Shown in pieces: positions 10,364-27,455 of a stretch of 32,544 nucleotides of DNA (the stretch's first letter is position 1; every line of letters starts with the position of its first letter). A program made the translations under genes and the position numbers. A model generated the notes under the pieces. It saw only the letters and a program-made list of their open reading frames with translations, had not been told where the DNA came from and made no database searches. The DNA comes from Paludibacteraceae bacterium. GTDB lineage: Bacteria > Bacteroidota > Bacteroidia > Bacteroidales > Paludibacteraceae. The stretch covers positions 1 through 32,544 of the forward strand of contig JAFSXJ010000111.1 of NCBI GenBank assembly GCA_017444065.1. Reading direction: 5' to 3'.

Positions 10364-12028
10364 ATGAGATACCATTTACACATCGCGCTGTCCGCCGTTG
10401 TGGTCCTCATGACGGCAGTGCAGAGCAGGGCTGAGGTTCCCGCTAACGTACGTGAGGAGTTCCGTATGACGGCACCGCTGGTGACTGACCGGCAGGAGCA
10501 GCATGAGACGCTGCCGCAGGTAGCCGCATCGGCAGACAGCCTCGTACGCGTCACCACGAAGTACCTGCACACATACATCGACACCATCCGTGTCGTGCGC
10601 TATAGCGAGGACAGTATTCCCCGTACTGACACCATCATCACTTTTGCGGACTCTACCGACCGCAAGGGGCATTATGTGCAGGCGTACATCGGTGGCGGAT
10701 ACGGTTCGATAGGTTTCCGTCTTGCCGAAGGACACGGCGGAAAGGTCAGCGGCTTCGCCACAGGACGTGTGCAGGCGCAGTACGCCTACTTCTTCCACCC
10801 GAACTGGGGTATAGGTGCAGGCTTGTGGTTCGAGAACCTGTCCTCCACCGCCTCGCTGGCGAACGGAATGGACTACACGGACTTTGTGTTCCTTGACCGC
10901 ATCGACACCAATGGCGAGCCGCATTACAACCATACCGCGCGCGTCTATGGATGGAAGGAGCGTGCTACGCTGTATAACCTCGCTATTCCCGTATCCTTGC
11001 AGACGCAGTGGTGGAACGAGGCGGGAGAGCTTGGCATATTCGGTGCCATAGGTGTCGCGCCGGCTTTTGCCGTGGTGCAGAACTACCGGCTGATTGAGGG
11101 CGATGTGGAGCATTACGGCGTCTATCCCAACTGGGGACTGACGCTGGACGGCATGGCAGACCATGAGTATGCGCGCAACACCGACAATCCCGACCTGTAC
11201 ACGGCCAAGCCGACCGCGAAAGGCAAGATGGAGGTCTCCCCGATGGCTACGGTGTTTGCCGAAGTCGGAGCACTGGTCAACCTGACGCGACAACTGGATA
11301 TGATGATTGGTCTGTACGGGCATTTCACGCCGAACAATGTCGTGACAGAGACCTTGGTGTCGCAATACCTGCCGGCAGACGCCGGTGAGGATGCGCCACC
11401 GTTCGGATGGGGACCCGAACAGCGAGTGGGACCGACCACCTTCATGGATGAGTACAAAGGACTATATGCCACATCGCTGCGAGAGGGAAAGACCTATCCG
11501 TGGGCGGTTGGACTGAAGATCGGTCTGCATTGGCACCACTTCGACAAGCCCAAGAGCCATACCGAGCAGAACTACGACTACTTCTTCCGTCCGGACACAA
11601 CCTACCGTACCGTAGAACGGCTGGAGACGGAAGTGGTGGAGCGTATCGATACCTTCAAACGGGCACCCAAACTGGAGATTAAACTCATACAGAAGAAGGT
11701 GGACAAACTCAACAAGATTTACTTTGCCTTCGACAGCTACAGCCTGAACAACAAGTCGAAGAAATACCTCCGCGACATCTATGCCATCCTCAAGGAAGTG
11801 CCGAACCATATCATCATCGGTGGGCATGCCTCGGAGGAAGGTCAAGTGGAGTACAACGAGCAACTGGCGCTTCATCGTGCAACAGCGGTCAAGAACTATC
11901 TGGTGCAGCTGGGAATACCCGAGCCGCAACTCGAGGTGAAGAACTACGGTGCACGCGTGGCGAACGAGGAACGTGTGGATAACAACATATCCCTTGACCG
12001 GCGCGTGGAAATTATTATAGTGGAATAA
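10364..12028 (+). CDS. OmpA-type outer membrane protein, first copy
   Basis: 554 residues. Residues 1-23 are a signal peptide (LHIALSAVVVLMTAVQSRA). Residues about 100-420 look like an outer membrane beta-barrel, with alternating aromatic strands such as GHYVQAYIGGGYGSIGF, QAQYAYFFHPNWGIGAGLWF and TYPWAVGLKIGLHWHHF. Residues 440-554 are an OmpA C-terminal, peptidoglycan-binding domain (KIYFAFDSYSLNN, IIIGGHASEEG, NEQLALHRATAVKNYL, SLDRRVEIIIVE). It should tie the outer membrane to the wall. The start is 4 bases after the SpoIID-like gene and the stop is 12 bases before the T9SS cargo, so they form one operon. It is a clear paralogue of the gene at 14484-16049, with the same order of domains and matching strand motifs. 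Confidence 0.92.
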   Translation: MRYHLHIALSAVVVLMTAVQSRAEVPANVREEFRMTAPLVTDRQEQHETLPQVAASADSLVRVTTKYLHTYIDTIRVVRYSEDSIPRTDTIITFADSTDRKGHYVQAYIGGGYGSIGFRLAEGHGGKVSGFATGRVQAQYAYFFHPNWGIGAGLWFENLSSTASLANGMDYTDFVFLDRIDTNGEPHYNHTARVYGWKERATLYNLAIPVSLQTQWWNEAGELGIFGAIGVAPAFAVVQNYRLIEGDVEHYGVYPNWGLTLDGMADHEYARNTDNPDLYTAKPTAKGKMEVSPMATVFAEVGALVNLTRQLDMMIGLYGHFTPNNVVTETLVSQYLPADAGEDAPPFGWGPEQRVGPTTFMDEYKGLYATSLREGKTYPWAVGLKIGLHWHHFDKPKSHTEQNYDYFFRPDTTYRTVERLETEVVERIDTFKRAPKLEIKLIQKKVDKLNKIYFAFDSYSLNNKSKKYLRDIYAILKEVPNHIIIGGHASEEGQVEYNEQLALHRATAVKNYLVQLGIPEPQLEVKNYGARVANEERVDNNISLDRRVEIIIVE

Positions 12029-12040
12029 AATTGTACAGCC

Positions 12041-14494
12041 ATGAAAACAGTCAAGCATATTATCCTCGCAGTACTGTGTCTGGTGTCGGCAACGATGTCA
12101 GCAAGGCAGTTCGAGCAGGGCGAGAAAATCTATGTCAATGCCGACCAGTCGTTTCACGACGGGTGTTTCAACTGGGCGAAGGACGGCGCAAAGATCTTCC
12201 TGTATGTTTGGAAAAAGACAGGAACGACGGACAGCGGCGCACAGTGGATAACCCTTGCTGTGGAGAGCGGCAGCCTGTTCAGCGGAAGCATGCCTGCAGG
12301 TGACTTCAACAGGTGTATCGTCATCCGCGGTACGTCTGCCGATTGGTCTGGCAAGTGGAACCAGACAGGTGACTTGACGTTCCCCGAAGTGTCCGACAGG
12401 AATTACATCAGCAAGTTCTGGGAAGGCGGAACGGAAGCCGACTGGCTGACGTATGCTCCCGCGGCGGATAAGATTGGTGCGTTTGCCAAGTCTGTCACGG
12501 CGGAGGACATCCATATCTGCTCATCTGCTTTGGGTGGACCGTATTCCCTGCACGTCAAGCTGAAATCAGGCAAGTCTGACTATGACTACGACAACGTGCA
12601 GTGCCACGGCTGGTACAAGAGTTCCGACGGCAATACATGGACCTCGGTGGACGCCTATGCCGGCAATGCAAGGGACGGGGAGAATGACAAGGATATAATC
12701 AACAATGTCCTGCCGTCCTCCGGCACGGTGTATTACTATCTCCATTCAGCGAAGAAAGCGGGATGCCGATTGCTCAAGATTGTTCCAGACGCTACGGGGT
12801 GTGACCTGGACTGCACCATCACCTCGTTTGAGGTGGCATGCTCGGAGGTCAATGCCAATGATACGACCTACACCTTGGACGGCATGGTGGCATTCGGCGA
12901 GCCGAACGGTGATCTCGTCATCACCTGTGACGGCAAGTCCACAACCATCAAGGCGGCTGACGCAAGGAGCCCGCAGACATTCTCCATCCCTGGCTTGCGG
13001 GCAGCCACAAGCAACGGAAAGACAACAACCGCACAGGCGAAGTTCACGGGGAATGCCGGATGCAGCAAGACAAAAACATTTACCGTGCCGAATGCCAAGC
13101 AGGGTATTGTTTATACCTACTTGGATGTTCCTCTTGGCGAAACAACGCCGCTCAATCCCTCGGGAGCGAACTACGCGAACGAGCACAAGTGGTATATTGA
13201 TGGCGTTGAGCAGCCTGACATGCAAGGTGCTCAGACCAGCATCCCATACGACGAGCCCAACACCACCCTGTACACCTATCGCGAGTTCAATCCGCCAGCA
13301 GGCGATATGAACGACATGTTGGACAACGGCGGCTATGAGCAGGCGGACGCCAATGTGTACAAGACTTCGCCCATCAGCGAATACGACTTCTGGGGCAAGT
13401 ATGACAACGCTGCAACGCCAACTGACTACTATGCTGCCCATGTAGGGGCAAGCAACGGATTTGCCGTCGTGCAGAGTGCCAACAATTTTGCCGGCACGTA
13501 CGCCAAGGTCACACCGCGAGAGGGCAGTTTCTTCGCGCTGTTCGACGCTGCGTCGGGCAGTACCATGGCGGGAAAGAAGGCTTGGTTCGCAACAACAGCC
13601 AACAACCCGAACCTCAAGTTGCAGAAGGGCACAACCTACCTCTTCTCTTTCTGGGCGGCGAACATCAACAACTACGGCGAGATGGACAATGCAGCCAAAC
13701 TGCAGTTCCAGATTGAGTACAACGGCAAGACCGTCAAGCTCGGCGAGCCGCTGGACCTGAACAAAGCCGACTTTCGTAATAACCGCTGGCACCAGTGCTC
13801 ATCGACGTTCTATGCGGATGCCGATGCCGCGACTGTCACCATCTCTGTGGTCAACCTGAATAACAACAGCCTGAACATCGGCAACGACTTTGCACTCGAC
13901 GACATACAGTTCCGTGCCGTCAGCAGCGTGTCGCGTGCAGTACGCATCCAGCAGGTGTTCGTGGTGCAGACGTATAACCCCTGTGTTGACGGACGCATAT
14001 TCCGCAAGTGGGACAATGTGCTGTTTGTCAACAACGGCGACAGCATCTATACGGCGTACCAGTGGTACAAGAACGACCAGAAGATGAACGGCGAGACGCT
14101 GCAACGGCTCTATACCGCTTCAACGCCGATGGCGGGTACAACCGACCTCTATCATTGTGTGGCGACGCGTAAGGACGGAACGACAGATAAGTTCTGCGCG
14201 CACATGTTCAACGATTTTCCGGAGTCACGTCTGCATGCCGCCATCGGGGATATAGCCGCCGACGGCATCTCAGTAGCACCCACACAACTTGCTGCCGGAC
14301 AATCCGTTACCGTCTGCAAGACCTTTGCCAGTGCAGTGCATGCCACACTGCTGACCCTGACCGGACAGACAATCAGTACAACCGTTCTCTACGATGAGAC
14401 GAACACCATAACCATGCCCGCCACGGCAGGATTGTACCTGCTGAGGCTGCAAAGTACAAACGTGCAAAGAACAGTTAAGATCAATGTGTTGTAA
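12041..14494 (+). CDS. T9SS-exported surface protein, short paralogue of the giant protein
   Basis: 817 residues. A signal peptide (KHIILAVLCLVSATMSA) leads into an N-terminal domain (FEQGEKIYVNADQSFHDGCF). Residues about 253-358 form one A-type module with a Cys pair (CDLDCTITSFEVACSE to GNAGCSKTKTFTVP). Residues about 425-630 are a galactose-binding-like beta-sandwich (SFFALFDAASGS, YLFSFWAANINNYGEMDNAA, IGNDFALDDIQF). The end (LLTLTGQTISTT, AGLYLLRLQSTNVQRTVKIN) is a type A T9SS sorting domain. Every part has a counterpart in the 3712-residue protein at 16317-27455. I infer a surface-anchored binding or adhesion protein; the ligand is unknown. It overlaps the next gene by 11 bases, so translation is probably coupled. 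Confidence 0.88.
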   Translation: MKTVKHIILAVLCLVSATMSARQFEQGEKIYVNADQSFHDGCFNWAKDGAKIFLYVWKKTGTTDSGAQWITLAVESGSLFSGSMPAGDFNRCIVIRGTSADWSGKWNQTGDLTFPEVSDRNYISKFWEGGTEADWLTYAPAADKIGAFAKSVTAEDIHICSSALGGPYSLHVKLKSGKSDYDYDNVQCHGWYKSSDGNTWTSVDAYAGNARDGENDKDIINNVLPSSGTVYYYLHSAKKAGCRLLKIVPDATGCDLDCTITSFEVACSEVNANDTTYTLDGMVAFGEPNGDLVITCDGKSTTIKAADARSPQTFSIPGLRAATSNGKTTTAQAKFTGNAGCSKTKTFTVPNAKQGIVYTYLDVPLGETTPLNPSGANYANEHKWYIDGVEQPDMQGAQTSIPYDEPNTTLYTYREFNPPAGDMNDMLDNGGYEQADANVYKTSPISEYDFWGKYDNAATPTDYYAAHVGASNGFAVVQSANNFAGTYAKVTPREGSFFALFDAASGSTMAGKKAWFATTANNPNLKLQKGTTYLFSFWAANINNYGEMDNAAKLQFQIEYNGKTVKLGEPLDLNKADFRNNRWHQCSSTFYADADAATVTISVVNLNNNSLNIGNDFALDDIQFRAVSSVSRAVRIQQVFVVQTYNPCVDGRIFRKWDNVLFVNNGDSIYTAYQWYKNDQKMNGETLQRLYTASTPMAGTTDLYHCVATRKDGTTDKFCAHMFNDFPESRLHAAIGDIAADGISVAPTQLAAGQSVTVCKTFASAVHATLLTLTGQTISTTVLYDETNTITMPATAGLYLLRLQSTNVQRTVKINVL

Positions 14495-16049
14495 GAGAAT
14501 CATAGTAGCCATGCTGGCTCTCGGTGCTGCCATCGGCATACGGGCGCAGGAGGTTCTTGCGGGGCATGAACTGACCGAGGTTCGTCACTCTGAACGACGT
14601 ATCACGCTCCCGGGGGACGTCAGTTCAACCGACAGCCTTGTCGAGGTGCATATGCTCGACGTGAATACGTATGTGGACACCATGCGTACAGTCCGACAGA
14701 CCGAACGGCAGTTCACCCAGGCACCGGACTCGATGTGCCGTCGCGGGCATTATGTTCAGATTCATGCCGGTGCAGGATATGGCAATGTGGGCTACGGCTT
14801 ACTCAGAAAGGACCTGACCCATCCGACCGCTACGGGCTATGAAACGGGCGGTATATCTGCGGCGGTACAGTTGCAGTACGCTTATTTCTTCGTGCCCTAC
14901 GTGGGCATAGGCATAGGCTTGTGGCTGTCAGAATATACGTCCCACGGCTATCTGCAGGGCGACTTTGTTTATCCGGGTCAGTGGGATTCGGATGTTGACC
15001 CGTCGGGAGTGAGCAAGACGAGCGAGCAGTACACCCACCATACCACGGTACGCAACTGGCATGAGCGCCAGACCGTACATACCGCAGGACTGCCTGTATC
15101 ACTGCAGTTCCAGGCTTGGGGCAGACGGAACAAGGCGGGCTTCTTCCTCGCACTCGGGGCTGCACCGACATATACGGTCATGACAGGCTATCGGGTCATG
15201 CAGGGAGAGATTGAGCATTGGGGAATGTACCGCAACAATGCGGAGATTCACAATATGCACGAGTTCGGGACCATCGATTATGCAGGCAGGACAGGCACGC
15301 AGCACATCAGGCGATTCGCGGCTTCGACCTTTGCCGACCTCGGGCTCCTGATCCAGATGAGTCCGCACACCGACCTCTTGCTTGGCGTTTATGCTCATTA
15401 TGCACTATTGGATATGCAGGATGCCACGCCCGTTGACATCGGCTGGAAGGACGACCGCTTCCCGAATCTTGATGTGCAGGAGTACAACGGCATACTGGCG
15501 ACCAACTGCCTTAGCGACGGCGGACGCCTCCATCCTTGGCAGGCTGGCGTGAAGATTGGTCTGCACTGGCATAGTATTGCCAAACCGCGGACTGTAACGG
15601 TTATCGGGAACGACACGCTCCTGCACACCGTCGAGCGATATGACAGCGTCTGGACAACGCGCGTCGATACGCTCCAACGACATATGTACACTGCGGTCGA
15701 GCGCGTACAACAGCAGATTGACAGACTGAACCGCGTTTACTTCGAGTTTGACAGTCATGAACTGTCACCCGAGGCAATGCAGTCGCTGGACAAGATTGCC
15801 GAACAACTGAAAACCATACCCAACAAGGTGCTCATTGGCGGACATGCTTCTAAGGAAGGTACGCGCGCGCATAACGAACGCCTCGCAAGGAACCGTGCGC
15901 TCATGGTCAAGTACTATCTGGTTGACAAGGGAGTGCCCGCAACGCGGATGATCGTCAAGGACTATGGCTCAACTGTGTCCAACGCCATCAACCTCAGCGA
16001 CGACCTCGCGCTCGACAGACGCGCAGAGATTATTGTGCTCGAGGAATAA
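14484..16049 (+). CDS. OmpA-type outer membrane protein, second copy
   Basis: 521 residues. The ATG at 14484 lies inside the end of the upstream gene. It is preferred because it supplies a full signal peptide (MCCKRIIVAMLALGAAIGIRA); an internal Met at 14511 would leave it too short. The barrel region (about 90-385) shares its motifs with the first copy: RRGHYVQIHAGAGYGNVGYG, LQYAYFFVPYVGIGIGLW and HPWQAGVKIGLHWHS. The C-terminal OmpA domain (about 410-521) has RVYFEFDSHELSPEAM, LIGGHASKEG, NERLARNRALMVKYYL and ALDRRAEIIVLEE. It ends the tight operon and is followed by a hairpin-forming repeat and then the giant cargo gene, so it is placed as the partner of that protein, just as the first copy precedes the short cargo. 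Confidence 0.92.
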   Translation: MCCKRIIVAMLALGAAIGIRAQEVLAGHELTEVRHSERRITLPGDVSSTDSLVEVHMLDVNTYVDTMRTVRQTERQFTQAPDSMCRRGHYVQIHAGAGYGNVGYGLLRKDLTHPTATGYETGGISAAVQLQYAYFFVPYVGIGIGLWLSEYTSHGYLQGDFVYPGQWDSDVDPSGVSKTSEQYTHHTTVRNWHERQTVHTAGLPVSLQFQAWGRRNKAGFFLALGAAPTYTVMTGYRVMQGEIEHWGMYRNNAEIHNMHEFGTIDYAGRTGTQHIRRFAASTFADLGLLIQMSPHTDLLLGVYAHYALLDMQDATPVDIGWKDDRFPNLDVQEYNGILATNCLSDGGRLHPWQAGVKIGLHWHSIAKPRTVTVIGNDTLLHTVERYDSVWTTRVDTLQRHMYTAVERVQQQIDRLNRVYFEFDSHELSPEAMQSLDKIAEQLKTIPNKVLIGGHASKEGTRAHNERLARNRALMVKYYLVDKGVPATRMIVKDYGSTVSNAINLSDDLALDRRAEIIVLEE

Positions 16050-16060
16050 AAAAATGACAT

Positions 16061-16122
16061 TGCACTATTTGCACTTTCTGCACTTTGAGCGGGAAAGTGC
16101 AAATAGTGCAGAAAGTGCAAAG
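16061..16122. repeat. Mirrored 9-base tandem repeats forming a long hairpin
   Basis: Three 9-base units starting TGCACT (16061-16087) are followed by a 10-base turn and then three units starting GTGCA in the opposite orientation (16098-16124). Folded back, they pair over roughly 27 positions with a few mismatches. The element begins 11 bases after the stop of the second OmpA-type gene and could end its transcript. The remainder up to 16316 holds a short GTTAGTT repeat near 16188-16202 and no clear promoter box. Confidence 0.7.
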
Positions 16123-16316
16123 CAAAAAATTATAGCCCTGTCTCAACTGTATCATGTAAAAAGTCAGCCCAATTTGCCGAAGGCGAACGTTAGTTGTTAG
16201 TTATATATTCCTTACAGGTTCGCTAACCATTGTAGGGGGCAACGCGACCTCTGAAGCGGATTGAATCGGCATTAACCACAGTCGAAATATAGAAGCAAAA
16301 CATAACACCCACTGTC

Positions 16317-19300
16317 ATGAAACATCTTTTCATCATGAAAACTCGAAATACTATCATCACTGTCCTCACCATACTCCTCTCCACCTTGGGAGTCTCCTCT
16401 TCGTATGCGTATTATTTCCGTGCAGGGGACAAGTTCTATATCAATACATATAGCCGTAGTGACGGTGATACAGAATTTGATTGGGGAGAAGCCGATGCCC
16501 ATCTTGTCATGTGGATTTGGAAAGACGGAGGTGATGGTGAGTGGTTGGAATTCAAGACCAAGGAATATGAGTACAATTCTCATAAAGTCAGGATATTGTC
16601 GGCAACAATAATGAATGATGCAGACTATAAGTACTGCAAATTGATTCGTCGCCCCAATACCGATTGGTATCATTCCGAAGATAGTGACTGGGGGCATACC
16701 GGTTCAATGCCCGTTAACAATGTTTATTTGTACAGATATTGGTTCAACGGTGTATCAGGCGAATGGTCGCACACCTTGCCGGACGATTTGATTCTTTCGC
16801 CGTATAGAACGGATTTAGGGACATATGCCAGTCTGAAATCTACATTGTCTGCAAGCAGCATTGAAGCGGAGGAATACACGATTTGTCCGGCTGCTGCGGG
16901 CGACCTTATCTCCTTGCATTGCAAGATAAATGCCGCACGCACCGACTATGAAGAAACCGATGTATGGCAGCATGCGTGGTACTGTTCTGTGGATAACGGT
17001 GCTACATGGGAGTCGTTGGACGGGTATGCAGGATGCATCCGCAATTTTGACGAGGGAGCAAGAACTTTGGCACCGCTTTTGCCCGACCCTTTGCCTGCTA
17101 CAGTTTGTTATTACCTCTATTCGAAGGTCGCAAGCGGGCAAAGGCTGATTAAATTCACTACGGATGATACCGGCTGTGACTACGATTGTTCCATCACTTC
17201 GGTCGAACGCGCCATATCTAATGTGAATGCAGAGGACAACACCTATTCGCTGGACGGACTGGTGGCTTTTGGGGTCGCGAACGGTGATCTGAAGATTGTT
17301 TATGGAAAAGGTAAAGAAGGTGAACAGACATTAACCATCTCATCTCCAGTCAGTCCGCAGTCTTTCTCATTCACTGGACTTCCGGCGGTTGAATCCAGTG
17401 GCGAGACAAGAACGCTTGAAGCCTATTTTACGGGTAATCCATCTGGCTGCACACGAAATTTCGTTGACGTGCCTGTGCCTAATGTTCGTGATGCGCGAAC
17501 TGAACACCCGACAATCCACTTGCTGACAGGAACTTCCGCCACGCTTACACCGGACGATGCGGAATTGTCCAACAAGGCTGTATGGACAGATGCTGCGGGT
17601 GTAGCACATAATGTGGCTGCTGGAGGTATAAAAACATGTTCGACGATGCCTTCCGATACCGCGGGTACACACTACTATGTTTACAAAGAATTGTACCCAC
17701 TTGTTGGCAGCACGGCTGACATGATGTCAAACGGTGACTATGAGGCTGATGCCGGCTATGGCGTCGTGGATGGAGTAAGTACCATGAGTGCCTATACTTT
17801 TTGGGGACGATTCGATAATGCTGCGGCCTATTCTGAATTTTATACTGGTGCTCATGAGAATGCAAACAATGGCTTTGCGGTCATCCGGCACGCAAAGAAC
17901 TTCCATGACAAATATGCGACACTTACTGCCAAACACGGCAGTTACTTTGGCTTGTTTGATGCTGCTTCTGATGGAGTGGCAGGCAAAAAGGCTTGGTATG
18001 CCAATACTTCCTCGAATAACGATTTGAAGCTTAAAAAAGGCACAACATATGTCTTCTCCTTCTGGGCGGCGAACATTAACAACTACGGCGAGATGGACAA
18101 TGCGGCCGTTTTACAGTTCCAAATCGAGTATGGAGGGAATACCTACCTGTTGGGGGACCCCTTGGATTTGGGATCGGCGGAATTTCAGAATAACATCTGG
18201 CACCAGTGTTCTTCCACATTCACGGCTACCGAGGATGCAGATGATGTAACCATTTCTGTAGTGAACCTTAATACCGACCGTTTGCGTGTCGGTAACGATT
18301 TCGCGTTGGATGATATCCAGTTCCACGCAATCAGTACGGTCACTGAGACATCCAAGTCCTACCAGATATTCCGTGTTGACTTCCATATACCGACAATATC
18401 TTCCTTTACCGCTACGCCTGTTCAGATGGGATGTGGCGAAATGACGTATGCCGTGGACTTGAATATTCAATATAGGAACCAACCCGGTAAATTAAAAGTC
18501 GTGGATATAACAGGCGGTGGTAGCCGTGACGTCTGGGATACGACACTTGTCGCACTCCCCGGTGCAGGAGCAGGTGCAACATGGGATGAACTTAAGGAAA
18601 TTAACCGCAGGGTAGTGCAAACCATCATTTCCGGTGACCCTGTCGGAAAGAAGCGTACATATAAGGTCTATTTTGAGGATTGGACCACTGCAACACTGTC
18701 GGCCGATTTCAATGATCCCGTTATTCCTGTCCTGACTGCAACCAATGACAACAATCCCGCAGCCATTCTGCCATGTGACCAGTTGACATACACGCTCAAT
18801 GTGAATGTGTCTTACCGAAACATGAGTGCTGACAAAATACAAGTTTGGGTAGATGGTGCTTCGTATGCCACAAGTTCGCTCAAGCAGGAAAAATCGATAG
18901 ACAAAAATACATCTGCCACTAAGACTGTTTCGTTTGCCATTGACAATGTTCCTGCTGACAGTGCTGAACATGTTTTGCATGTAGAATGTGCCGGACTTGG
19001 TGAAGGTTGTTTTGATCCTCTCACATTCCGTGCTCCATTTGCACCGAAAGTAGTTGAGCCTATAGTGGTGATAGCACCTGCCGTTTCATGTAGTTCGCCT
19101 ACGTATACAGCAACAGTCAATGTCACAACAACCAACCATCGTAATGCCACTCTAACGGCTTTCGTCAATCAGGGAACGCCAATCTCAAAAGTAGTTGTTG
19201 GCGATGTTACAGAATTTGTATTTGATGACCTGAAGGCTGATGGCAGTGAGGATACGGTAACTGTGTACTTTGATTATGTACATGCTTCTCAGCCTGAGTG

Positions 19301-22300
19301 CGATAAGACCCACAAATATACTGCGCCAACGCAACCCAGAGCCTCGTTGGTAACACCCATTACAATGCCCTCTGTCGCAGCGTGTGACCAGCAGACCTTT
19401 GACTTGACTATATCTGTCAAGTTCACCAATCAGGACGGCGACCTTCAGCTCAAAGCGGACGATGGTTCGTGGAAAACCTTCTACACGGCAAGTACAACTG
19501 CCGGCGAAGGCAAGTATCTCAAGAATAGCACCGAACAGACCAAATCGGTTACACTCACAGGGCTGCCTACAGATGGCGGAACAGCGCATACGATTTACTA
19601 CCGCTTCAACGCAGAAGGCTATTGCGGCTATGATACACCGCTTGAGTCAGCGGCACTGACCTTCCCGCAGTCACCGACTGTCACATCGACAAGTGTATTC
19701 GCTACTCCTGCGACCTTGGATTGTGATGCAGCGAACTACACAAGAACGGTCACTGTCAACTATAAGAACGGAATAGGCAAAAAGATTGTTATTGAGGATG
19801 AGGATGGTAACAAACTCTACACCTCTCCCACTACCCTGGCAACCTCTGACGGCAGTATATCGCCAAGCGTCACGCTGTCAGCCATCGACGGAGCATCGCA
19901 TCATGTAATCGCCTACTTTGAAGGTTATGACTGCAAGAGCGAGCTTGCTCATAAGGGAACATATACCGCACCGGTGAAACCGGTCATCAGTGATGTAACT
20001 GTATCTGACGTCGGTGAAACGAAATGCAGTCCGTATAATTATACCATTAGCGGTACGGTTACTTACTCTAATGCTGACATCTCAAAGAAACTGATTGTCG
20101 CTTACGGGGCACTCAAGGATGAAATCACCCTCTCGTCAGCATCCGCTACAGTGGACTTCACAATTTCGGACATGACGGCTACAGGTAGTGCTCTCACCGT
20201 AGATGCATACTTCAAGGATGCTCCAGCTGGATGCACCAAGACATCCAATACCTTTGCGTCACCCACACAGCCGAGTATGGATATCAAGAACATCAAGCAA
20301 AGCACACCCGGATGTGATGACCTGACATACAACCTGTCGTTTGATGTCGATTATATCTATCAGCACGGAAATCTGACTGTTCATGTGGATACCTATGGTG
20401 ATACAGTAATCACGATTCCTGAAACCAGCCGGAGAAAGAAAGATAAACTGACAGTGCATGTTACATATACGGCTAAGATTCCTGCCGATGGCAATACACA
20501 TACTTTGTATGCATCGTTTGCAGGTGAAAAGTCCTGTTCTGCCAGCCAAACACTCGCTGCTGTTCTTTCCCCTGTAATCACTGATTTAGCGGTGACTGTG
20601 CCTACTGATCCTATTGCATGTGATGCAACTTCATATCCCGCATCCGTAGCGGTTACTACACAGTATGCTGTTGGCAAAAATATTGTAATCAAATATAAGA
20701 ATGCATCCAACGAGGATGTGGTGTTAGGTACCCACAAAGTGCTGACTTCACCCGAAACATACACCTTCACACCGCTGTCTTTCACCGACATCGGTGCAAC
20801 AGGCACGCGTTCGGTTTGGGCGTATCTCGCAGAGCGTGATACATGTGTCAAGTCCGAGGATTATGCAATTCCTCCTACCACATCCATAGACCCGTTTACC
20901 ATTTCCACAATAACGGACAAGAGTACTTGTAGTGGGGTCAAATACGATTTGGAGGGACATATCAGTTATTCATCGATGCCTGTCGGTGCGAGCCCGGCTG
21001 TTCGCGTTGGCGCATACAATGCCGCAATGACGAATGTTACTTCCACTGGTGCTGACTTTAAATTCACTAATGTAACCACTACCGGCGAAGGCTTGCATGT
21101 AGAGGCGTACTTTACGGACAAACCCGAGTGCTTTGTTTCCTCCGGCACATTCAATGCACCGCTGAAACCTGATGTTCAAGTTATCAACCAAGTCATGGCG
21201 GATGCAGCTTGCAACGTCATGACCACCACCTTGCTCTTCGACATCGTTTATACCAAGCAACCTGCTGGAGAACTTAAAGTCTGGCTCAATGACACGCATA
21301 TTGGTGAGCGTACCCTTACTTATACGCCTAATGCCGGCAAGGAGAAACCCGATACCATTCATGCCGCCGTTTCCAGTATTCCAGCAACAGGTGGCGCCTA
21401 CACCCTGCATGTCAACTTTGCTGCCGGCTGCGGTGACCGCACGTTTGATACTCCTTCCACAAAATTCTCGCCGGTAATCTCTGATTCCACAGCAGTTATT
21501 TCTGGTGAGAGCTGCGGCTCTGATGCATATACGGTAACGGTAACCTTCAAGGTCAAGAATGGTCAAAGCAAACTTGTTACAGTGGCAGGAAAGGGGCTGA
21601 CACCGCAATCCAAGACAGTTGTTGATGGAACAAACACCTTTACCTTCACCAATGTGCCTCGCACGTTAGCTGTTGCCGATGACGACTATTTCGAGATTTA
21701 CTTCCCCGATGCTTTGCCCTCATGCCCGCATATCCTGTTGGAATATGCTGAGACGCCGAAGCCTGTTCTGACATCTATTACCCCCAATGCAGCTCCAGCA
21801 TTGGATTGCACAGATGGTACGTACACGCTTACCGGTACTGTCGGCTACACCTATATCAATGCCCAGCCGTACATCTGGTTGGATGATAAGGAAGACCTTG
21901 CTGTGCCGGTCGGTACTGCCCCCGGCTCTTATTCCGACAAGTCGGCCTCATCGGCCTCTACAGCATTCTCGCTTACAGGTGTGCCTGCTGATGGTCAGAC
22001 GCACACTTTGCACCTGAAAGCTGCAGGATGGACGGCCGGCTGTCCTGTCTCGCAGACCTTTACCGCTGCCCTGCAACCCGTATTCGGTACAGTAACCGCC
22101 GTTGCTTCGGACACTTATCTGCATTGCAATCAGACCTATTCGGTAGTTGTCACCATACAGTTCGTTCATAGTGGTGGCAGGACCCTGTATGTCGAATATA
22201 CCGACAACGGCTCTACCACAACGGAGGAGATAACCACCGTAGCCGGTGATACCGAGAAACAAATAACGCTGACCGGACTAAAGACAATCGACGGTGCCGC

Positions 22301-25300
22301 ACACGATATTAAGGTGTGGTTCGATGGCTTCAAGTCATGCATGGTATCACCGTCTCCTACATACACTGCACCCAAATTGAAAACCATCACATTGAGTGAT
22401 GTTACGTCAAATCCTGTTAATTGCGGTGATCTTTCGTTCAGCATCAGCGGTACTGTTACCTCCAATGTGGCAGGTGAGTCAATCGTAATTACCACCAATA
22501 GTGGCAAGTCCACCACCGTGACTTCCAGGAAAGATGAAGCAGTTGAGTACACCGTATCCGGCCTCACTGCGGCGGGAAATCTTTCTGCCCAGTTTGTCGG
22601 CGTGCCATGTAGTGTAACCGACGAGAAAGACTTTGTAAATGTTCTGCTGAAGCCTTACCCGACATTTGACTTGAACGACATAACGCCACAGTGCTATCCC
22701 GCTGAATCGTTCGTAGTCACCTATACACATACTGATGCTGCAACAATCAAATATACAGTTAATGGCGGAGAGGAAATTCCCGTAGCTGTGAATGCCGAAA
22801 AGGAGTTCATCATAGACATCCATGACTGGACTGCCGGAACGTATGTCATCGAGGCGTATGCTGAAAGTGCTGCAGGCTGCAAGAGTTCGCCAACAAGCAA
22901 GAAGAATCTTGTGATTAACGCCAAACCTGAAGTGACAACACTTTCGGTCGAGAATATATGCAAGGGTGCAGGCGTCGCTAAGGTGAACTTCACAGCGGCA
23001 GATGCAACGCAGTATAGTTACTATATAGTTGATCAGACGGAACCTTCTGCAAAGAAAGACATTCTCGATGGCAAGTTTGATTTGACCATCCCGACCGCTC
23101 TGATAGCAGGTACATACACACTTCGCCTGACTGCATATTCTGCGACATGTGAAAGCAACCCAAAGGATGTTGAGTTCACTATCTATCCGTTGCCTGAACT
23201 CAAATTTGACGCAATCGATGCGGTATGCTACCCCGCAAGCGGTGTCGAGGTGGAATATACCGCTGCATATACCAAAGAGTTCCGCTACACAGTCAAGACA
23301 AAAGATGGTACGACAACCAAGATTAACAACAAACTCGTTGCTGTTGATGCTTCCAAGAAATTCACGTTGGAGACAGACGGATGGGATGCCGGTGAATACA
23401 CCTTGACCGCTACCGCTGTCTCTACATCCGAGAAAGGGTGCACGGCTGATGCTCCATCTGTAGATTTCTCTATCCTGCCCAAGCCGAAGGTCACCTCCAT
23501 CGCTATGGAGAGTAAATGTGTCAATACTGCAACAGCCCAATTGACATTCGCAGTGGAATATGCAGATGAGTACCAATACTATATTGTCGGTCAGACCACT
23601 CTCTCCGATAAGAAATCAATCGCTTCACCTGTTGATGTAACTATATCTGGTTTGCTTGACGGAGAATATACACTCAAACTGGTGGTAAGTTCTGCTTCCT
23701 GCGTAAGTGACACAGCAAGCACCGAGTTTGAGATTTATCCCTTGCCGACATTCCTGTTTAATGATGCAGTAGCACATGACTGCTACCCGTCAACCGGAAT
23801 ATCTGTCGGTTACACATCAACCAACGCCTCTACATACAGCTATACGCTGACCAAAGAAGGTGCCGGCTCGCCTGCTCTGACGGGCGATGATCTGCATGCC
23901 GATGCCACAGGTTCAATTGCGCTCAACACTGAGGGATTGTCAGCCGGCAAGTACGAACTAAAAGTAACTGCCAAGTCCGTGCACAACTGCGAACAGGCTA
24001 CACCTGTTACGAAAGAGGTGACTATCTATGACCAACCGACACTAACCATTACTTCCGTAGAAAACCGCTGTGAGGGTGGTGACAAAATAACTGTTAATTA
24101 CAAAACGGAATATGCAACAGATTATTCGTATGAGGTGGTAGGAACCGGTTTGTTCGGTCACGGTCTGGCTGCATCTTCCGGCTCGTTCACGATTGACATC
24201 AACACCCTTACTGCCAAAACATATACTCTGCATATGCAGGCAACAGCAACACATGCTTCGCTTGTCTGTGAAGGTGCTACAGCCGACAAGACGTTTGAGA
24301 TATATCCTGTGCCCAAAGTGGAGATTGTTACGCCTTCGCCAATCAAAGAGGGTGTGTCTAATGTGACGGTATCGCTTAACCTGACGGCTGCAGACACCTA
24401 CGACTGGCGCTTCATGAACGGTGCAACAGAGTTGGAGAGCGGTGATGACGTTCCGTCAAGTACTACCACAATATCTCTTACTACAGGTACGTTGGACGAA
24501 GGCACATATAGCTTGTTTGTTGCGCCTGAAAACGCGCATTGTACGGGTGAGGAGAAAGAGGTGCATGTCGTTGTGAATAACAAGCCGACTATCAACTTCA
24601 CTGAACCCGCTCTCGTTTGTGAAAAAGCGACTGCAATCAGTATCCCTTACAGTACATCACCCGATGCTACTGATTTGTATTATACCAACATGCGAGGCAC
24701 AACGCCTGTCGGCAGCGAACAGCATGTTGACCTCACGGCAACAGCATCGCCGCTGTCGGTGGATATTTCGGGTCTGTCGTACGGAACTTATACCTTAAGC
24801 GGTTATGTCAAGTCTGCTCTCGAAAGCGGGGATGTTTCGGAGGTGAACTTCACGCTGATGGCTGTGCCGACAGTAGAAACGGTTACCCAAACCAAGGAGT
24901 TCATCGGTTGTGACGAGACCTACGACGCAACGATTGTTCTTAACATCTACAATGCTGCAGGCAAGTCGGTTTATGCCAAATATACCGATGATAATACCGA
25001 GCACATCGTGCCTGTTACTACTGCAACGGGTGATGAAACGGCTACGTTCCACCTGTCAGGATTGAAAGATACGGATCATGGAACGCACTACGTGAACGTG
25101 TATGTTGATGGCTTTGAGGAGTGTGGTGGCGTGGCTACCTACACCGAACCCAAGCTCATGACAATATTGCCCGGCTTTGAAGCTACCCCTGCTCCCAAGT
25201 CATGTGGCGATGATACGTTTACTATCAACGGCAAGGTATGTGCCAACTGCAATGTCGGAAATATCGTTGTCGAGTACGATGCTATGCACACTGCTACAGT

Positions 25301-27455
25301 TGTCGCAAACACGTCGGGTAGCAGTTTTACTATCCCGAGCATCCCTGCCGGTGGTAGTATAACTCAACTCAAAGCATACTTCGAGGGTAAGACGTGTGGA
25401 GTTGTCGAGTCAGCTGCTTTCGCTGAACCTACTCAACCTCAAGCATCTGTCACCTACAGCCCGATTGTTGCTCCTGCATGCGACGTTACCACCTTCAGTT
25501 TGGACTTCTCACTCAGTTACACCTACCAGCAAGCAGGCACGCTGACCGTTTGGGTGGACGAAGCTCATAAGTTGGTGCTCACCAGTGCTGACGGTGATTA
25601 TCAGGCACTCAACGCGACTGCACAAACCCTAACCGGCACAATCGCCAATCTGCCTGCCGACGGACGTACAGGACAGAAACTCTACTTCAAGTTCAGTGGT
25701 GACCATTCATGCGAAGGCTCGGTTGATTTGCCTGCTTTCCCGCAGACCCCGTTGATAACAGGTGTTACTGTGACCGGCGTACCGGCGTATGTCGCAGGCG
25801 AAAGCGGCACATACAAGCCCACCGTTACGGTGACGTATGAGAAAGCCGTCGGCGAGCGGATCGTATTGGAGTATCTGGATAAGAACGACGATCTGCAGTA
25901 CGCATACTCCGCTTCGACCGTTTCCGGCGACGGCACGTATGTGTTCGACGAGGCATCCGGCTTGCCGGCCTTTGACGATGTTACCAAGGGCAGCCGTACC
26001 GTCCATGCCTACTTCGAAGGGTCAGCATGTACTACCGGTGGCAACCATGACGGTGCGTACACGGCTCCCACCTACTGCGCCATCACATTTGTCAGCGTCA
26101 GCACTGTTAATCATAGCCTCTGCGACCATCTGCTCTATGACATCACGGGCTACGTTTCCTACGTTGGCACCAGTGTCGGCGACCTTATTGTCGAACTCGA
26201 TGCTGTCAACCGCTGTGTCATCCCAGAATCGCAGTGTGTAGCAGGGCAGCCCTTGCCGTTCACCATTCAGAATGCCAGTGTAGCTATCCCTGCTGAAGGT
26301 GTGCAGTTGCTGACATATTTCGCTGATTTGGCAAGTAACACGACTTCTTACACTCTCGTGGCCGACCTCGTCATACCGGAACTCCAAGCCACACTTGCTG
26401 CTGTGGATACCGTCTTCACCTGTGGCGACAAGAGTTATACGGTCGGAGTCAACATCACTTCTGCCAATCAGTCCGGCACGGGGTATGTGCTGGATAGTAT
26501 CGCCGGAGGCGCAGCCGTTGCGCGTCATACGGAGTCGGGTACATTCAGCGGTACCGCCTCGTTCTCTATCGCTCGTCCGGCAACGGCGGAGACCCACTAC
26601 GTCATCGTCCGCTATCCGGCTACCGGCTGCGAGGTGGTGTCTGCACCTATCGACATCAACCCGTACATCAAGTCCGAGCCGCGCATCAGCCTCACGGCTA
26701 TCGACCGCTTGTGCGACAGCGAGACTGAACTCAACCTGCCGCTGGTCATCACGCAGGGTGACATCACCGACGCCGCACTGACGGTTACCGACAGCAAGGG
26801 ACAGACTATTGTCAATGCTGCACCGCTGGTCATCAGCGACAGCAAGGACACCCTTACATATTCCCTTGCAGCACCGCTTGCTGCCGGCACGTACACCGCT
26901 ACGGTGGAGGCACACGACACGCTGGACTGCGCCGCTACAGCCACCTTGCCTGTTGAGCTTGCCTTGGACGGTCATCTCTACTCCAAGTGGACGGATGTGC
27001 TGCTTGTGGATAACCCAGACGGACAGTTTACAGCTTACCAGTGGTATGAGAACGGGCTGCCGCTTGCATCCCAGACCGCCCAGACGCTTTACCTGCCCGA
27101 GGGTATGAACGGCACATACTGCTGTCTGCTGACCCTCACCGACGGCACTCAGCTCTACACCTGTGAGCAGGCGTTCGCCGCCATACCGCGTTCGGCGGAT
27201 AACCCCGGCACACATGCAGCTAACGAGGTCAGCGTGACGCCTAACCGCGTCCGCATGGGCGGTAACGTCACCGTACGGCAGTCGGCAAGCGAGACGCTCA
27301 GGCTCCTGCTCATGAGTGCCACCGGCCAGCGTATAGCCGAATGGGTGCAGACCGACAGCCGTGGCGAACTACAGATGCCGTCCGTACAGGGCGTATATAT
27401 GCTGCGCGTCACCACGCCGACCGACTCCCGCGCCGTCAAGATTGTAGTATATTAA
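16317..27455 (+). CDS. Giant modular T9SS-exported surface protein, 3712 residues
   Basis: The signal peptide lies within residues 1-35; a second in-frame ATG at 16335 (MKTRNTIITVLTIL) is equally likely as the start. Residues 36-690 match the short paralogue at 12041-14494: N-terminal domain (FRAGDKFYINTYS), one A-type module (about 280-390) and a galactose-binding-like domain (YVFSFWAANINNYGEMDNAA, VGNDFALDDIQF). Residues about 693-2111 hold 14 A-type modules, 2112-2849 eight B-type modules and 2850-3550 about seven more A-type modules. The end (LYSKWTDVLLVDN to GVYMLRVTTPTDSRAVKIVVY) matches the end of the paralogue and is a type A T9SS sorting domain. The protein should be a long, disulfide-stabilised stalk or adhesin on the cell surface. 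No enzyme domain is seen. Base composition appears lower in GC through most of the gene than in its last 1.7 kb and its neighbours. Confidence 0.92.
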   Translation: MKHLFIMKTRNTIITVLTILLSTLGVSSSYAYYFRAGDKFYINTYSRSDGDTEFDWGEADAHLVMWIWKDGGDGEWLEFKTKEYEYNSHKVRILSATIMNDADYKYCKLIRRPNTDWYHSEDSDWGHTGSMPVNNVYLYRYWFNGVSGEWSHTLPDDLILSPYRTDLGTYASLKSTLSASSIEAEEYTICPAAAGDLISLHCKINAARTDYEETDVWQHAWYCSVDNGATWESLDGYAGCIRNFDEGARTLAPLLPDPLPATVCYYLYSKVASGQRLIKFTTDDTGCDYDCSITSVERAISNVNAEDNTYSLDGLVAFGVANGDLKIVYGKGKEGEQTLTISSPVSPQSFSFTGLPAVESSGETRTLEAYFTGNPSGCTRNFVDVPVPNVRDARTEHPTIHLLTGTSATLTPDDAELSNKAVWTDAAGVAHNVAAGGIKTCSTMPSDTAGTHYYVYKELYPLVGSTADMMSNGDYEADAGYGVVDGVSTMSAYTFWGRFDNAAAYSEFYTGAHENANNGFAVIRHAKNFHDKYATLTAKHGSYFGLFDAASDGVAGKKAWYANTSSNNDLKLKKGTTYVFSFWAANINNYGEMDNAAVLQFQIEYGGNTYLLGDPLDLGSAEFQNNIWHQCSSTFTATEDADDVTISVVNLNTDRLRVGNDFALDDIQFHAISTVTETSKSYQIFRVDFHIPTISSFTATPVQMGCGEMTYAVDLNIQYRNQPGKLKVVDITGGGSRDVWDTTLVALPGAGAGATWDELKEINRRVVQTIISGDPVGKKRTYKVYFEDWTTATLSADFNDPVIPVLTATNDNNPAAILPCDQLTYTLNVNVSYRNMSADKIQVWVDGASYATSSLKQEKSIDKNTSATKTVSFAIDNVPADSAEHVLHVECAGLGEGCFDPLTFRAPFAPKVVEPIVVIAPAVSCSSPTYTATVNVTTTNHRNATLTAFVNQGTPISKVVVGDVTEFVFDDLKADGSEDTVTVYFDYVHASQPECDKTHKYTAPTQPRASLVTPITMPSVAACDQQTFDLTISVKFTNQDGDLQLKADDGSWKTFYTASTTAGEGKYLKNSTEQTKSVTLTGLPTDGGTAHTIYYRFNAEGYCGYDTPLESAALTFPQSPTVTSTSVFATPATLDCDAANYTRTVTVNYKNGIGKKIVIEDEDGNKLYTSPTTLATSDGSISPSVTLSAIDGASHHVIAYFEGYDCKSELAHKGTYTAPVKPVISDVTVSDVGETKCSPYNYTISGTVTYSNADISKKLIVAYGALKDEITLSSASATVDFTISDMTATGSALTVDAYFKDAPAGCTKTSNTFASPTQPSMDIKNIKQSTPGCDDLTYNLSFDVDYIYQHGNLTVHVDTYGDTVITIPETSRRKKDKLTVHVTYTAKIPADGNTHTLYASFAGEKSCSASQTLAAVLSPVITDLAVTVPTDPIACDATSYPASVAVTTQYAVGKNIVIKYKNASNEDVVLGTHKVLTSPETYTFTPLSFTDIGATGTRSVWAYLAERDTCVKSEDYAIPPTTSIDPFTISTITDKSTCSGVKYDLEGHISYSSMPVGASPAVRVGAYNAAMTNVTSTGADFKFTNVTTTGEGLHVEAYFTDKPECFVSSGTFNAPLKPDVQVINQVMADAACNVMTTTLLFDIVYTKQPAGELKVWLNDTHIGERTLTYTPNAGKEKPDTIHAAVSSIPATGGAYTLHVNFAAGCGDRTFDTPSTKFSPVISDSTAVISGESCGSDAYTVTVTFKVKNGQSKLVTVAGKGLTPQSKTVVDGTNTFTFTNVPRTLAVADDDYFEIYFPDALPSCPHILLEYAETPKPVLTSITPNAAPALDCTDGTYTLTGTVGYTYINAQPYIWLDDKEDLAVPVGTAPGSYSDKSASSASTAFSLTGVPADGQTHTLHLKAAGWTAGCPVSQTFTAALQPVFGTVTAVASDTYLHCNQTYSVVVTIQFVHSGGRTLYVEYTDNGSTTTEEITTVAGDTEKQITLTGLKTIDGAAHDIKVWFDGFKSCMVSPSPTYTAPKLKTITLSDVTSNPVNCGDLSFSISGTVTSNVAGESIVITTNSGKSTTVTSRKDEAVEYTVSGLTAAGNLSAQFVGVPCSVTDEKDFVNVLLKPYPTFDLNDITPQCYPAESFVVTYTHTDAATIKYTVNGGEEIPVAVNAEKEFIIDIHDWTAGTYVIEAYAESAAGCKSSPTSKKNLVINAKPEVTTLSVENICKGAGVAKVNFTAADATQYSYYIVDQTEPSAKKDILDGKFDLTIPTALIAGTYTLRLTAYSATCESNPKDVEFTIYPLPELKFDAIDAVCYPASGVEVEYTAAYTKEFRYTVKTKDGTTTKINNKLVAVDASKKFTLETDGWDAGEYTLTATAVSTSEKGCTADAPSVDFSILPKPKVTSIAMESKCVNTATAQLTFAVEYADEYQYYIVGQTTLSDKKSIASPVDVTISGLLDGEYTLKLVVSSASCVSDTASTEFEIYPLPTFLFNDAVAHDCYPSTGISVGYTSTNASTYSYTLTKEGAGSPALTGDDLHADATGSIALNTEGLSAGKYELKVTAKSVHNCEQATPVTKEVTIYDQPTLTITSVENRCEGGDKITVNYKTEYATDYSYEVVGTGLFGHGLAASSGSFTIDINTLTAKTYTLHMQATATHASLVCEGATADKTFEIYPVPKVEIVTPSPIKEGVSNVTVSLNLTAADTYDWRFMNGATELESGDDVPSSTTTISLTTGTLDEGTYSLFVAPENAHCTGEEKEVHVVVNNKPTINFTEPALVCEKATAISIPYSTSPDATDLYYTNMRGTTPVGSEQHVDLTATASPLSVDISGLSYGTYTLSGYVKSALESGDVSEVNFTLMAVPTVETVTQTKEFIGCDETYDATIVLNIYNAAGKSVYAKYTDDNTEHIVPVTTATGDETATFHLSGLKDTDHGTHYVNVYVDGFEECGGVATYTEPKLMTILPGFEATPAPKSCGDDTFTINGKVCANCNVGNIVVEYDAMHTATVVANTSGSSFTIPSIPAGGSITQLKAYFEGKTCGVVESAAFAEPTQPQASVTYSPIVAPACDVTTFSLDFSLSYTYQQAGTLTVWVDEAHKLVLTSADGDYQALNATAQTLTGTIANLPADGRTGQKLYFKFSGDHSCEGSVDLPAFPQTPLITGVTVTGVPAYVAGESGTYKPTVTVTYEKAVGERIVLEYLDKNDDLQYAYSASTVSGDGTYVFDEASGLPAFDDVTKGSRTVHAYFEGSACTTGGNHDGAYTAPTYCAITFVSVSTVNHSLCDHLLYDITGYVSYVGTSVGDLIVELDAVNRCVIPESQCVAGQPLPFTIQNASVAIPAEGVQLLTYFADLASNTTSYTLVADLVIPELQATLAAVDTVFTCGDKSYTVGVNITSANQSGTGYVLDSIAGGAAVARHTESGTFSGTASFSIARPATAETHYVIVRYPATGCEVVSAPIDINPYIKSEPRISLTAIDRLCDSETELNLPLVITQGDITDAALTVTDSKGQTIVNAAPLVISDSKDTLTYSLAAPLAAGTYTATVEAHDTLDCAATATLPVELALDGHLYSKWTDVLLVDNPDGQFTAYQWYENGLPLASQTAQTLYLPEGMNGTYCCLLTLTDGTQLYTCEQAFAAIPRSADNPGTHAANEVSVTPNRVRMGGNVTVRQSASETLRLLLMSATGQRIAEWVQTDSRGELQMPSVQGVYMLRVTTPTDSRAVKIVVY
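18394..22649 (+). repeat. First A-type module array (14 modules)
   Basis: Modules of about 100 residues follow one plan: Cys near the start in a C-D-x-x-x-Y context, two strands, a middle glycine turn, a glpadg-type loop, a strand, a second Cys, then a Pro-rich link such as YTAPTQP. The sequences have diverged; I see no long DNA identity between them. From the fourth module, types recur in threes. Type X (CDDLTYNLSFDVDYIYQHG) has first cysteines at residues 1023, 1333 and 1632, spaced 310 and 299 residues apart. Confidence 0.8.
22650..24863 (+). repeat. B-type module array (8 modules)
   Basis: Eight modules average 92 residues. They read C-Y-P-A-x-x-V-x-V-x-Y-T, then an aromatic strand (EFRYTV, EYQYYIV, TYSYTL), then AGTYTL or DGEYTL, a second Cys, and a link such as FTIYPLP. 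They alternate between a CYP form (first, third, fifth) and a form ending YYIV or YEVV (second, fourth, sixth), so the unit of duplication may be a pair. The seventh lacks the first Cys and the eighth lacks the second. Confidence 0.75.
24864..26970 (+). repeat. Second A-type module array (about 7 modules)
   Basis: The A pattern resumes with GCDETYDATIVLNIYN. The first two modules (24864-25440) resemble the last two before the B array (22069-22649): both pairs pass through YTxPKLxTI, then a CGD start. A type X module (CDVTTFSLDFSLSYTYQQ, first Cys at residue 3055) and two more follow, then two looser ones. The last part has a base composition like the flanking genes. Confidence 0.72.

Follow-up and report, generated by a model that had tools for sequence, protein, structure and literature searches.

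Several giant surface adhesins of uncultured gut bacteria each appear to have an outer-membrane carrier protein of their own. In the window, which is the whole 32,544-nucleotide stretch of DNA analysed here and an entire contig (G000:C57) of a Paludibacteraceae genome (2.42 Mb, 145 contigs, 80.6% complete), two T9SS cargoes each follow a gene for an OmpA-type outer membrane barrel. At the level of sequence, the barrel and the Ig-CTD end of its cargo form conserved, co-varying pairs across the genus, the adjacency recurs in other Bacteroidales, and the head of the adhesin is exchanged freely. We consider it probable, at roughly two chances in three, that each OmpA-type barrel serves the T9SS adhesin beside it as a dedicated carrier and anchor in the outer membrane. 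The original prediction had suspected an undescribed surface-display unit, and no carrier-adhesin pairs of this kind are described in the literature searched, which leaves most subscription journals outside.

Genes of the window and their relatives

The four genes lie on the + strand in the order OmpA-type protein, 817-aa cargo, OmpA-type protein and 3712-aa cargo (Table 1), which agrees with the original prediction in both order and position. A gap of 12 nt separates OmpA1 from cargo1, an 11-nt overlap joins cargo1 to OmpA2, and 267 nt lie between OmpA2 and the giant; the short gap and the overlap make at least the first three genes look like one operon. Promoter and terminator scans returned nothing above shuffled sequences. 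G+C content is 0.47-0.51 over 16 to 26 kb and 0.53-0.57 in the rest of the window. An ORF at the contig edge (positions 1-741) contains 2.2 copies of a 207-bp (69-aa) tandem repeat with 95% matches and looks like a repeat surface protein with a short terminal tail.

Table 1. Coordinates of the carrier and cargo features in the window.
Feature	Position	Strand	Description
OmpA1	10364..12028	+	554 aa, carrier-type outer membrane barrel with C-terminal OmpA domain
Barrel region of OmpA1	10652..11560	+	profile match
OmpA domain of OmpA1	11720..11956	+	residues 453-531; Ser490, Asn498, Arg505
Cargo1	12041..14494	+	817 aa: head (N and galactose-binding-like parts), Ig domain, T9SS tail
Pre-CTD Ig domain of cargo1	13979..14224	+	RKWDNVLFVNN...YQWYKN
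OmpA2	14484..16049	+	521 aa, second barrel and OmpA carrier; 11-nt overlap with cargo1
Barrel region of OmpA2	14730..15596	+	profile match
OmpA domain of OmpA2	15738..15974	+	residues 419-497
Giant cargo	16317..27455	+	3712 aa
Head of giant	16335..18398	+	residues 7-694, homologous to cargo1 head
Stalk of giant	18408..26930	+	~20 type-1 (~100 aa) and 9 type-2 (~88 aa) repeats
Pre-CTD Ig domain of giant	26958..27191	+	YSKWTDVLLVDN...YQWYEN
T9SS type A sorting domain of giant	27237..27449	+	TIGR04183, 33.6 bits

A matching four-gene set, with a giant of 3667 aa and followed by the gene that comes next in the window (95% identical), is found at G007:C36, which is also locus L096. The same four genes with the same downstream gene indicate that the order is no accident of assembly. 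Comparable arrays, some of them interrupted by additional ORFs, occur in L092, L093 and L097-L100, and together with G007:C36 they led us to reject chance or an assembly artefact. Named relatives retrieved with the carrier as the only query bear the names Bacteroidales or Paludibacteraceae and are nearly all uncultured MAGs; their sources, where stated (many state none), are the guts of goat, sheep, cattle, deer, reindeer, yak and water buffalo and, once, horse faeces. We infer that the window's bacterium inhabits the rumen or gut.

Each carrier consists of an N-terminal stretch, a ~290-residue barrel, a linker and an OmpA domain. The two proteins of the window share both barrel and C-terminal domain, as originally claimed, with 35% identity over 526 aligned positions (E 1e-102) and Pfam OmpA domains that score 63.8 and 66.7 bits against a curated cut-off of 27.2. 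PF13568 matches 56 of the 75 barrel-family members. The original prediction had also set the partner apart from PorP/SprF, which holds: PF11751 matches 0/75 members at E<=0.01, and alignment of the barrel profile with the genome's own PorP by hhalign gave a probability of 0.8, which is no similarity, so that identity with PorP/SprF was ruled out. TIGR03519 is absent among the best 25 of the 30 and 35 NCBIfam families for OmpA1 and OmpA2 and matches none of three sister barrels. A PDB profile search with the barrel returned four matches only (E 0.13-0.21), three of which are OprG.

PorE contacts peptidoglycan through the side chains of Asp576, Asn584 and Arg591 (PMC7192894, in excerpt). The spacing of Ser490, Asn498 and Arg505 in OmpA1 fits PorE positions 576, 584 and 591, with the Asn and the Arg kept, and the contact Asp is replaced by Ser or Cys in all 102 readable copies among 105 distinct OmpA domains. 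Peptidoglycan binding by the OmpA domain of the carriers may be altered or lost, and the replacement weakens the earlier proposal that this domain anchors the cargo to the wall. Elsewhere in the genome, at G000:C98:20825-29745 (L024), cargo and outer membrane genes alternate: a cargo of 1060 aa is followed by an OmpA protein of 599 aa that bears a GHTD motif, a cargo of 1003 aa and a CxC barrel of 352 aa. This group may represent a second type of carrier that retains the Asp.

The cargoes had been expected to share N-terminal, galactose-binding-like and C-terminal sorting regions. The two ends bear this out, with 42% identity over 699 positions on the N-terminal side and 35% over 168 positions at the C-terminal end; the galactose-binding-like part amounts to a weak CBM_4_9 match under the cut-off (15 of 37 aligned short cargoes match this model at E<=0.01), and the type A T9SS tail model TIGR04183, with a cut-off of 23, scores 33.6 bits in the giant and 21.1 bits, just under, in cargo1. 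The giant owes its extra length to two repeats, one of ~100 aa in ~20 copies, 19 of which are strong, and one of ~88 aa in 9 copies. Both N-termini are hydrophobic, judged by eye. The Ig domain that precedes the tail carries the motif vYrKWnDVLFvDN...YQWYkdG...tC and is an Ig fold by sequence (top PDB profile match 3.1e-24).

Among 41 cargo C-terminal segments at E<=0.01, 21 match type A (TIGR04183), 3 match type C and 0 match type B (TIGR04131), and 20 are without a TIGR04183 match. Because type A CTDs are all reported to be recognised by PorV (PMC12618676, in excerpt), the type A-like tails are the most surprising feature of these cargoes. Other large proteins of the genus, for example at L021:1825-8801, end in a '...RNGQLLLIVGGRAYTVFGQ'-like short motif and not in a full T9SS CTD, and some of them have an Ig domain just upstream of the motif. 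The window's genome also encodes another giant with a weaker Ig domain at its end (G000:C14:4804-5031, L165), in an open frame of 5258 aa, 5156 aa of which lie within the stretch examined.

Pairing of barrels with cargo ends

We examined 71 loci that had been chosen by their barrel match alone and not by their cargo, and defined a neighbour as a same-strand gene no more than two ORFs and 1 kb away. A T9SS-type cargo adjoins 87 of the 95 barrels, which is the opposite of a barrel family found mostly away from such cargoes. The eight barrels without an adjoining cargo comprise four at contig ends and four that are not (L094, L145, L158 and L160).

Carriers and Ig domains were also searched separately in 46 genomes of the genus. 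The best 100 Ig matches comprise 70 strong and 30 weak ones, divided at 80 bits, a cut chosen after the gap from 81.4 to 74.3 was seen. A same-strand barrel lies within ~2.5 kb of the estimated cargo for 66 of the 70 strong Ig domains, and for 1 of the 30 weaker ones among the matches listed. One of the four strong Ig domains without a barrel belongs to a broken gene in L063, and each of the other three comes from a genome in which a contig edge cuts off the cargo of a carrier, which suggests that they may be the missing halves of those cargoes. From the side of the carriers, 72 of the best 89 barrel matches (>140 bits) have a listed Ig partner and 17 have none, with 10 of the 17 among the 12 remote barrels that score 149 to 225 bits. 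Some places occur both among the genus genomes and among the named loci (e.g., G007:C36 is L096 and G022:C47 is L133), and the two sets therefore lack independence.

Eight stretches with weaker Ig domains were inspected as well. An OmpA or barrel ORF lies directly beside the Ig cargo in five (L166, L167, L168, L171 and L172) and two ORFs off in L169, none is labelled in L165 and L170, and the barrels of L166, L168 and L172 end in CxC. A separate set of carriers may thus serve the weaker Ig domains.

Across the order, the barrel profile finds matches, many of them partial, at E<=1e-10 in 49 of the 247 genomes, and 38 of the 173 genera are represented. A further twenty stretches, of which 18 come from outside the genus and represent other genera and families of the same order, contain 21 barrels that were inspected as the better-scoring among 78 listed places, many of the others matching part of the barrel only and perhaps being different barrels. 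All 21 barrels are directly beside an Ig/CTD cargo, including 19/19 outside the genus.

For co-variation, 106 of 127 pairs were taken as clean and ambiguous pairs were left out; the gene order is one way in 66 of the 106 and the other way in 40. Over 84 non-redundant clean pairs, barrel and Ig distances correlate with r 0.778, and the top of 2000 free permutations is 0.335. When the 44 pairs with a comparable head were considered, r was 0.685 for barrel and Ig, 0.070 for barrel and head (a value equalled or exceeded in 340 of 2000 permutations) and 0.000 for Ig and head. Partners were then shuffled within genomes (39 pairs in 23 genomes, with 28 pairs in the 12 genomes that have more than one pair), and the observed r of 0.691 was reached in 0/5000 shuffles, which suggests that the pairs are dedicated. 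Co-variation is partly expected from vertical inheritance of neighbouring genes alone, and a nearest-barrel test favours the own Ig domain in only 32 of 42 comparisons; judged by these distances, partners are matched beyond shared species, though imperfectly. Taken together, adjacency (87/95, 66/70 and 19/19) and within-genome shuffles (0/5000) support the original proposal of a dedicated partner for each cargo.

Head exchange and duplication

The clearest case of head exchange is given by L109 and L110, which to judge by the DNA are one species. Their carriers are 99.6% identical, their heads are unrelated, and DNA identity is ~95% on both flanks of the head and 93-96% in long stretches along the locus. 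Identity stops 17 nt into the cargo gene and returns 2.9 kb on, at about residue 964 of 1214, with a single 191-nt piece at 72% in between. In windows of 50 positions, the two cargoes are 18-38% identical over the first 15 windows, 4-60% over the next seven, and 94, 66, 68, 100 and 96% over the last five. The head of L110 is of the same type as that of L103, and the head of L109 recurs in L105 at 84-100% by window, beside a carrier that is only 88% identical. Across a tree of 64 carriers, head type (three types at 40% linkage) changes at least 17 times. In the exchange loci the head sits between the carrier and the Ig end on the DNA, and the match of carrier and Ig persists despite this, which suggests a docking end that belongs with the carrier and a head that behaves as a cassette. 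It seems that strains exchange the outer end of the adhesin and retain the carrier and the docking end.

Such exchange bears on the tandem duplication that the original prediction read from the window. In the carrier tree, OmpA1 (11 rows) and OmpA2 (10 rows) each form a full-support clade and are sisters at 98/97, which suggests that the carrier was duplicated in the window's lineage. In the head tree, the window's giant and the L092 giant have heads that group in one clade with those from other loci, and seven of the nine giants placed (L093, L096-L100 and L148) form a separate clade with a different head. The cargo heads are not sisters because, as we read the trees, heads were exchanged between loci; in part, this is the grouping of paralogues with unrelated loci that was to count against the original prediction. 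A simple duplication of the whole two-gene unit, which the carrier tree supports and the head tree does not, was ruled out; what the trees support is duplication of the barrels only, with exchanged heads. Two relatives, L091 and L095, hold only one unit at this position, and their carrier and single cargo are immediately followed by the gene that lies downstream of the giant in the window (93-95% identical), which we take to be FtsY. One MAG carries cargo1, OmpA2 and giant in L148 and a lone OmpA1 in L094, on separate contigs, which reflects either a rearranged array or an effect of assembly.

A proposed carrier model and its alternatives

SprF and PorG bind GldK by a disulfide through a CxC tail (PMC12635249, in excerpt), and the same motif marks one class of the barrels described here. 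Among distinct C-terminal segments of 150 residues, with four barrels at contig ends left out, CxC lies within 40 residues of the C-terminus in 0/102 OmpA-bearing carriers and in 23/27 barrel-only carriers; the remaining four comprise three with another tail and one frameshifted OmpA carrier. OmpA-tailed and CxC-tailed carriers occur on one strand within 6 kb in twenty combinations in 18 loci, at least three of which are the same place in both collections. In L064, L065, L074 and L159, gene groups hold one OmpA-tailed carrier, two cargoes and one CxC-tailed carrier. Outside the genus, the motif was found in 0/12 carriers without an OmpA domain, two of which (L188 and L193) have another C-terminal extension, which suggests that CxC may be special to this genus.

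The genome encodes T9SS components to which such tails might couple. PorP, PorK, PorL, PorM and PorN are above cut-off in one operon at G000:C115, and PorK, which matches its P. gingivalis counterpart at 1.4e-97, retains two cysteines that align between the two proteins (295 and 347), one of which would correspond to GldK Cys343. Exactly one PF11751 match (PorP) per genome was found in 21/21 genomes, which indicates that there is no set of SprF-like carriers. A single type B CTD occurs in 20 of the 21 genomes, and that of the window's genome lies at G000:C23, away from the locus. GldB is above cut-off in 18/21 genomes and GldD in 19/21, and a GldJ-like protein matches over its full length in the window's genome; the GldJ cut-off was passed in 0/46 genomes, and some weaker GldJ matches are PorK. 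Genes for the GldJ-like protein (under cut-off), GldD and GldB lie at G000:C120, C33 and C109 and are also present in the genus genomes. This gene content suggests that these uncultured Bacteroidales may glide.

We propose that the cargo would leave the Sov/SprA translocon bound through its Ig-CTD end to the barrel, as type B cargo does with PorP/SprF, and would remain attached to the barrel at the cell surface. The periplasmic tail would then set what the barrel is tied to: the OmpA domain of the window's carriers would provide a fixed anchor, either at the wall or at some other partner in the periplasm, and the CxC tail of sister carriers in the genus would form a disulfide link to PorK/GldK, as in SprF and PorG. 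In the window, two carriers from an old barrel duplication would serve a short adhesin and a giant on a stalk of ~30 repeats. Since the barrel lacks profile similarity to the genome's own PorP, this function is assigned by analogy.

The closest analogues are SprB-SprF and other pairs of a type B CTD and PorP/SprF (in F. johnsoniae, and PG1035-PorP-PorE in P. gingivalis), in which a large T9SS adhesin likewise has a neighbouring dedicated barrel that is required for export and anchors the adhesin (PMC9143113 and PMC12618676, in excerpt); the giant is also repeat-rich like SprB. In contrast to those pairs, the barrel here is without a PF11751 match (0/75), and the cargo tails are of type A or C, none of type B. 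Six porP-like genes of F. johnsoniae adjoin porE-like genes (PMC9143113, in excerpt). PorE, a periplasmic OmpA-domain lipoprotein, supplies an OmpA-type domain to the T9SS anchoring complex; PorP and PorE are two proteins, whereas barrel and OmpA domain are fused in one protein here, and PorE has the peptidoglycan-contact Asp that these carriers lack. In PorZ-PorQ and PorU-PorV, a CTD is held at the surface by a dedicated barrel, as we propose here (PMC10202324, in excerpt), but PorZ and PorU are parts of the attachment complex and not adhesins, and neither a multi-copy family nor head exchange is described for these pairs in the literature searched, represented in part by excerpts. PorG, a T9SS barrel of eight strands whose CxC tail binds GldK, resembles the sister carriers in its cysteine-bearing C-tail (PMC12635249, in excerpt); however, PorG is a core T9SS component, and the barrel family here is multi-copy and paired with cargo.

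The type A- or C-like tails count against reading the barrel as a carrier, as PorV is reported for type A. We regard it as unlikely, yet deserving of weight, that PorV carries the cargo like any other type A substrate and the PorU sortase attaches it to LPS, with the barrel a co-regulated envelope protein such as a receptor or a wall linker that steadies the membrane under a heavy adhesin. The giant's TIGR04183 score above cut-off and the 21/41 segments that match at E<=0.01 fit such a route, and OmpA-domain proteins commonly link outer membrane and wall; however, 20/41 segments are without that match, and the route leaves unexplained why one Ig type accompanies one barrel family (66/70, plus other genera and families) and why the barrel co-varies with the Ig end and not with the head.

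Linkage without physical pairing, in which adhesin and barrel are kept together since heads recombine between conserved flanks, would account for the ~95% DNA identity on both flanks of the swapped head, and shared inheritance by itself gives correlation. We find this very improbable, because the pairing holds across paralogous loci of one genome (0/5000 shuffles), whichever way round the two genes lie (66 and 40 of 106 clean pairs), and also in other genera and families. Adjacent gene pairing is also typical of two-partner secretion, and the barrel might itself pass the cargo across the outer membrane, in a two-partner or intimin-like manner, without Sov. That the cargoes have T9SS tails, that the genome has a PorP-K-L-M-N operon, and that to our knowledge no translocation pore is a ~290-aa barrel with an OmpA or CxC tail make this route scarcely credible.

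The carrier reading can be extended tentatively to a more specific picture, which we think possible and would not yet bet on: one barrel family, by profile unrelated to PorP/SprF, might be a plug-and-socket carrier of T9SS adhesins, in which, within the genus, the OmpA tail fixes the adhesin and the CxC tail couples it covalently to the moving PorK/GldJ track. Mixed operons might then yield one gripping and one moving adhesin, head cassettes might retarget them without touching the carrier, and the genus may glide. The choice between OmpA and CxC tails offers a direct test of what fixes and what moves an adhesin.

Dedicated carriers have been described for type B cargo, where the barrels are of the PorP/SprF kind. 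If the carrier reading is true, a second carrier family would exist across Bacteroidales and work with type A-like tails, type A cargo would not always depend on PorV, and many genes annotated as 'OmpA family protein' or 'outer membrane beta-barrel' beside large T9SS proteins would be carriers. Head exchange furthermore suggests how gut Bacteroidales may alter their binding targets and keep the display hardware.
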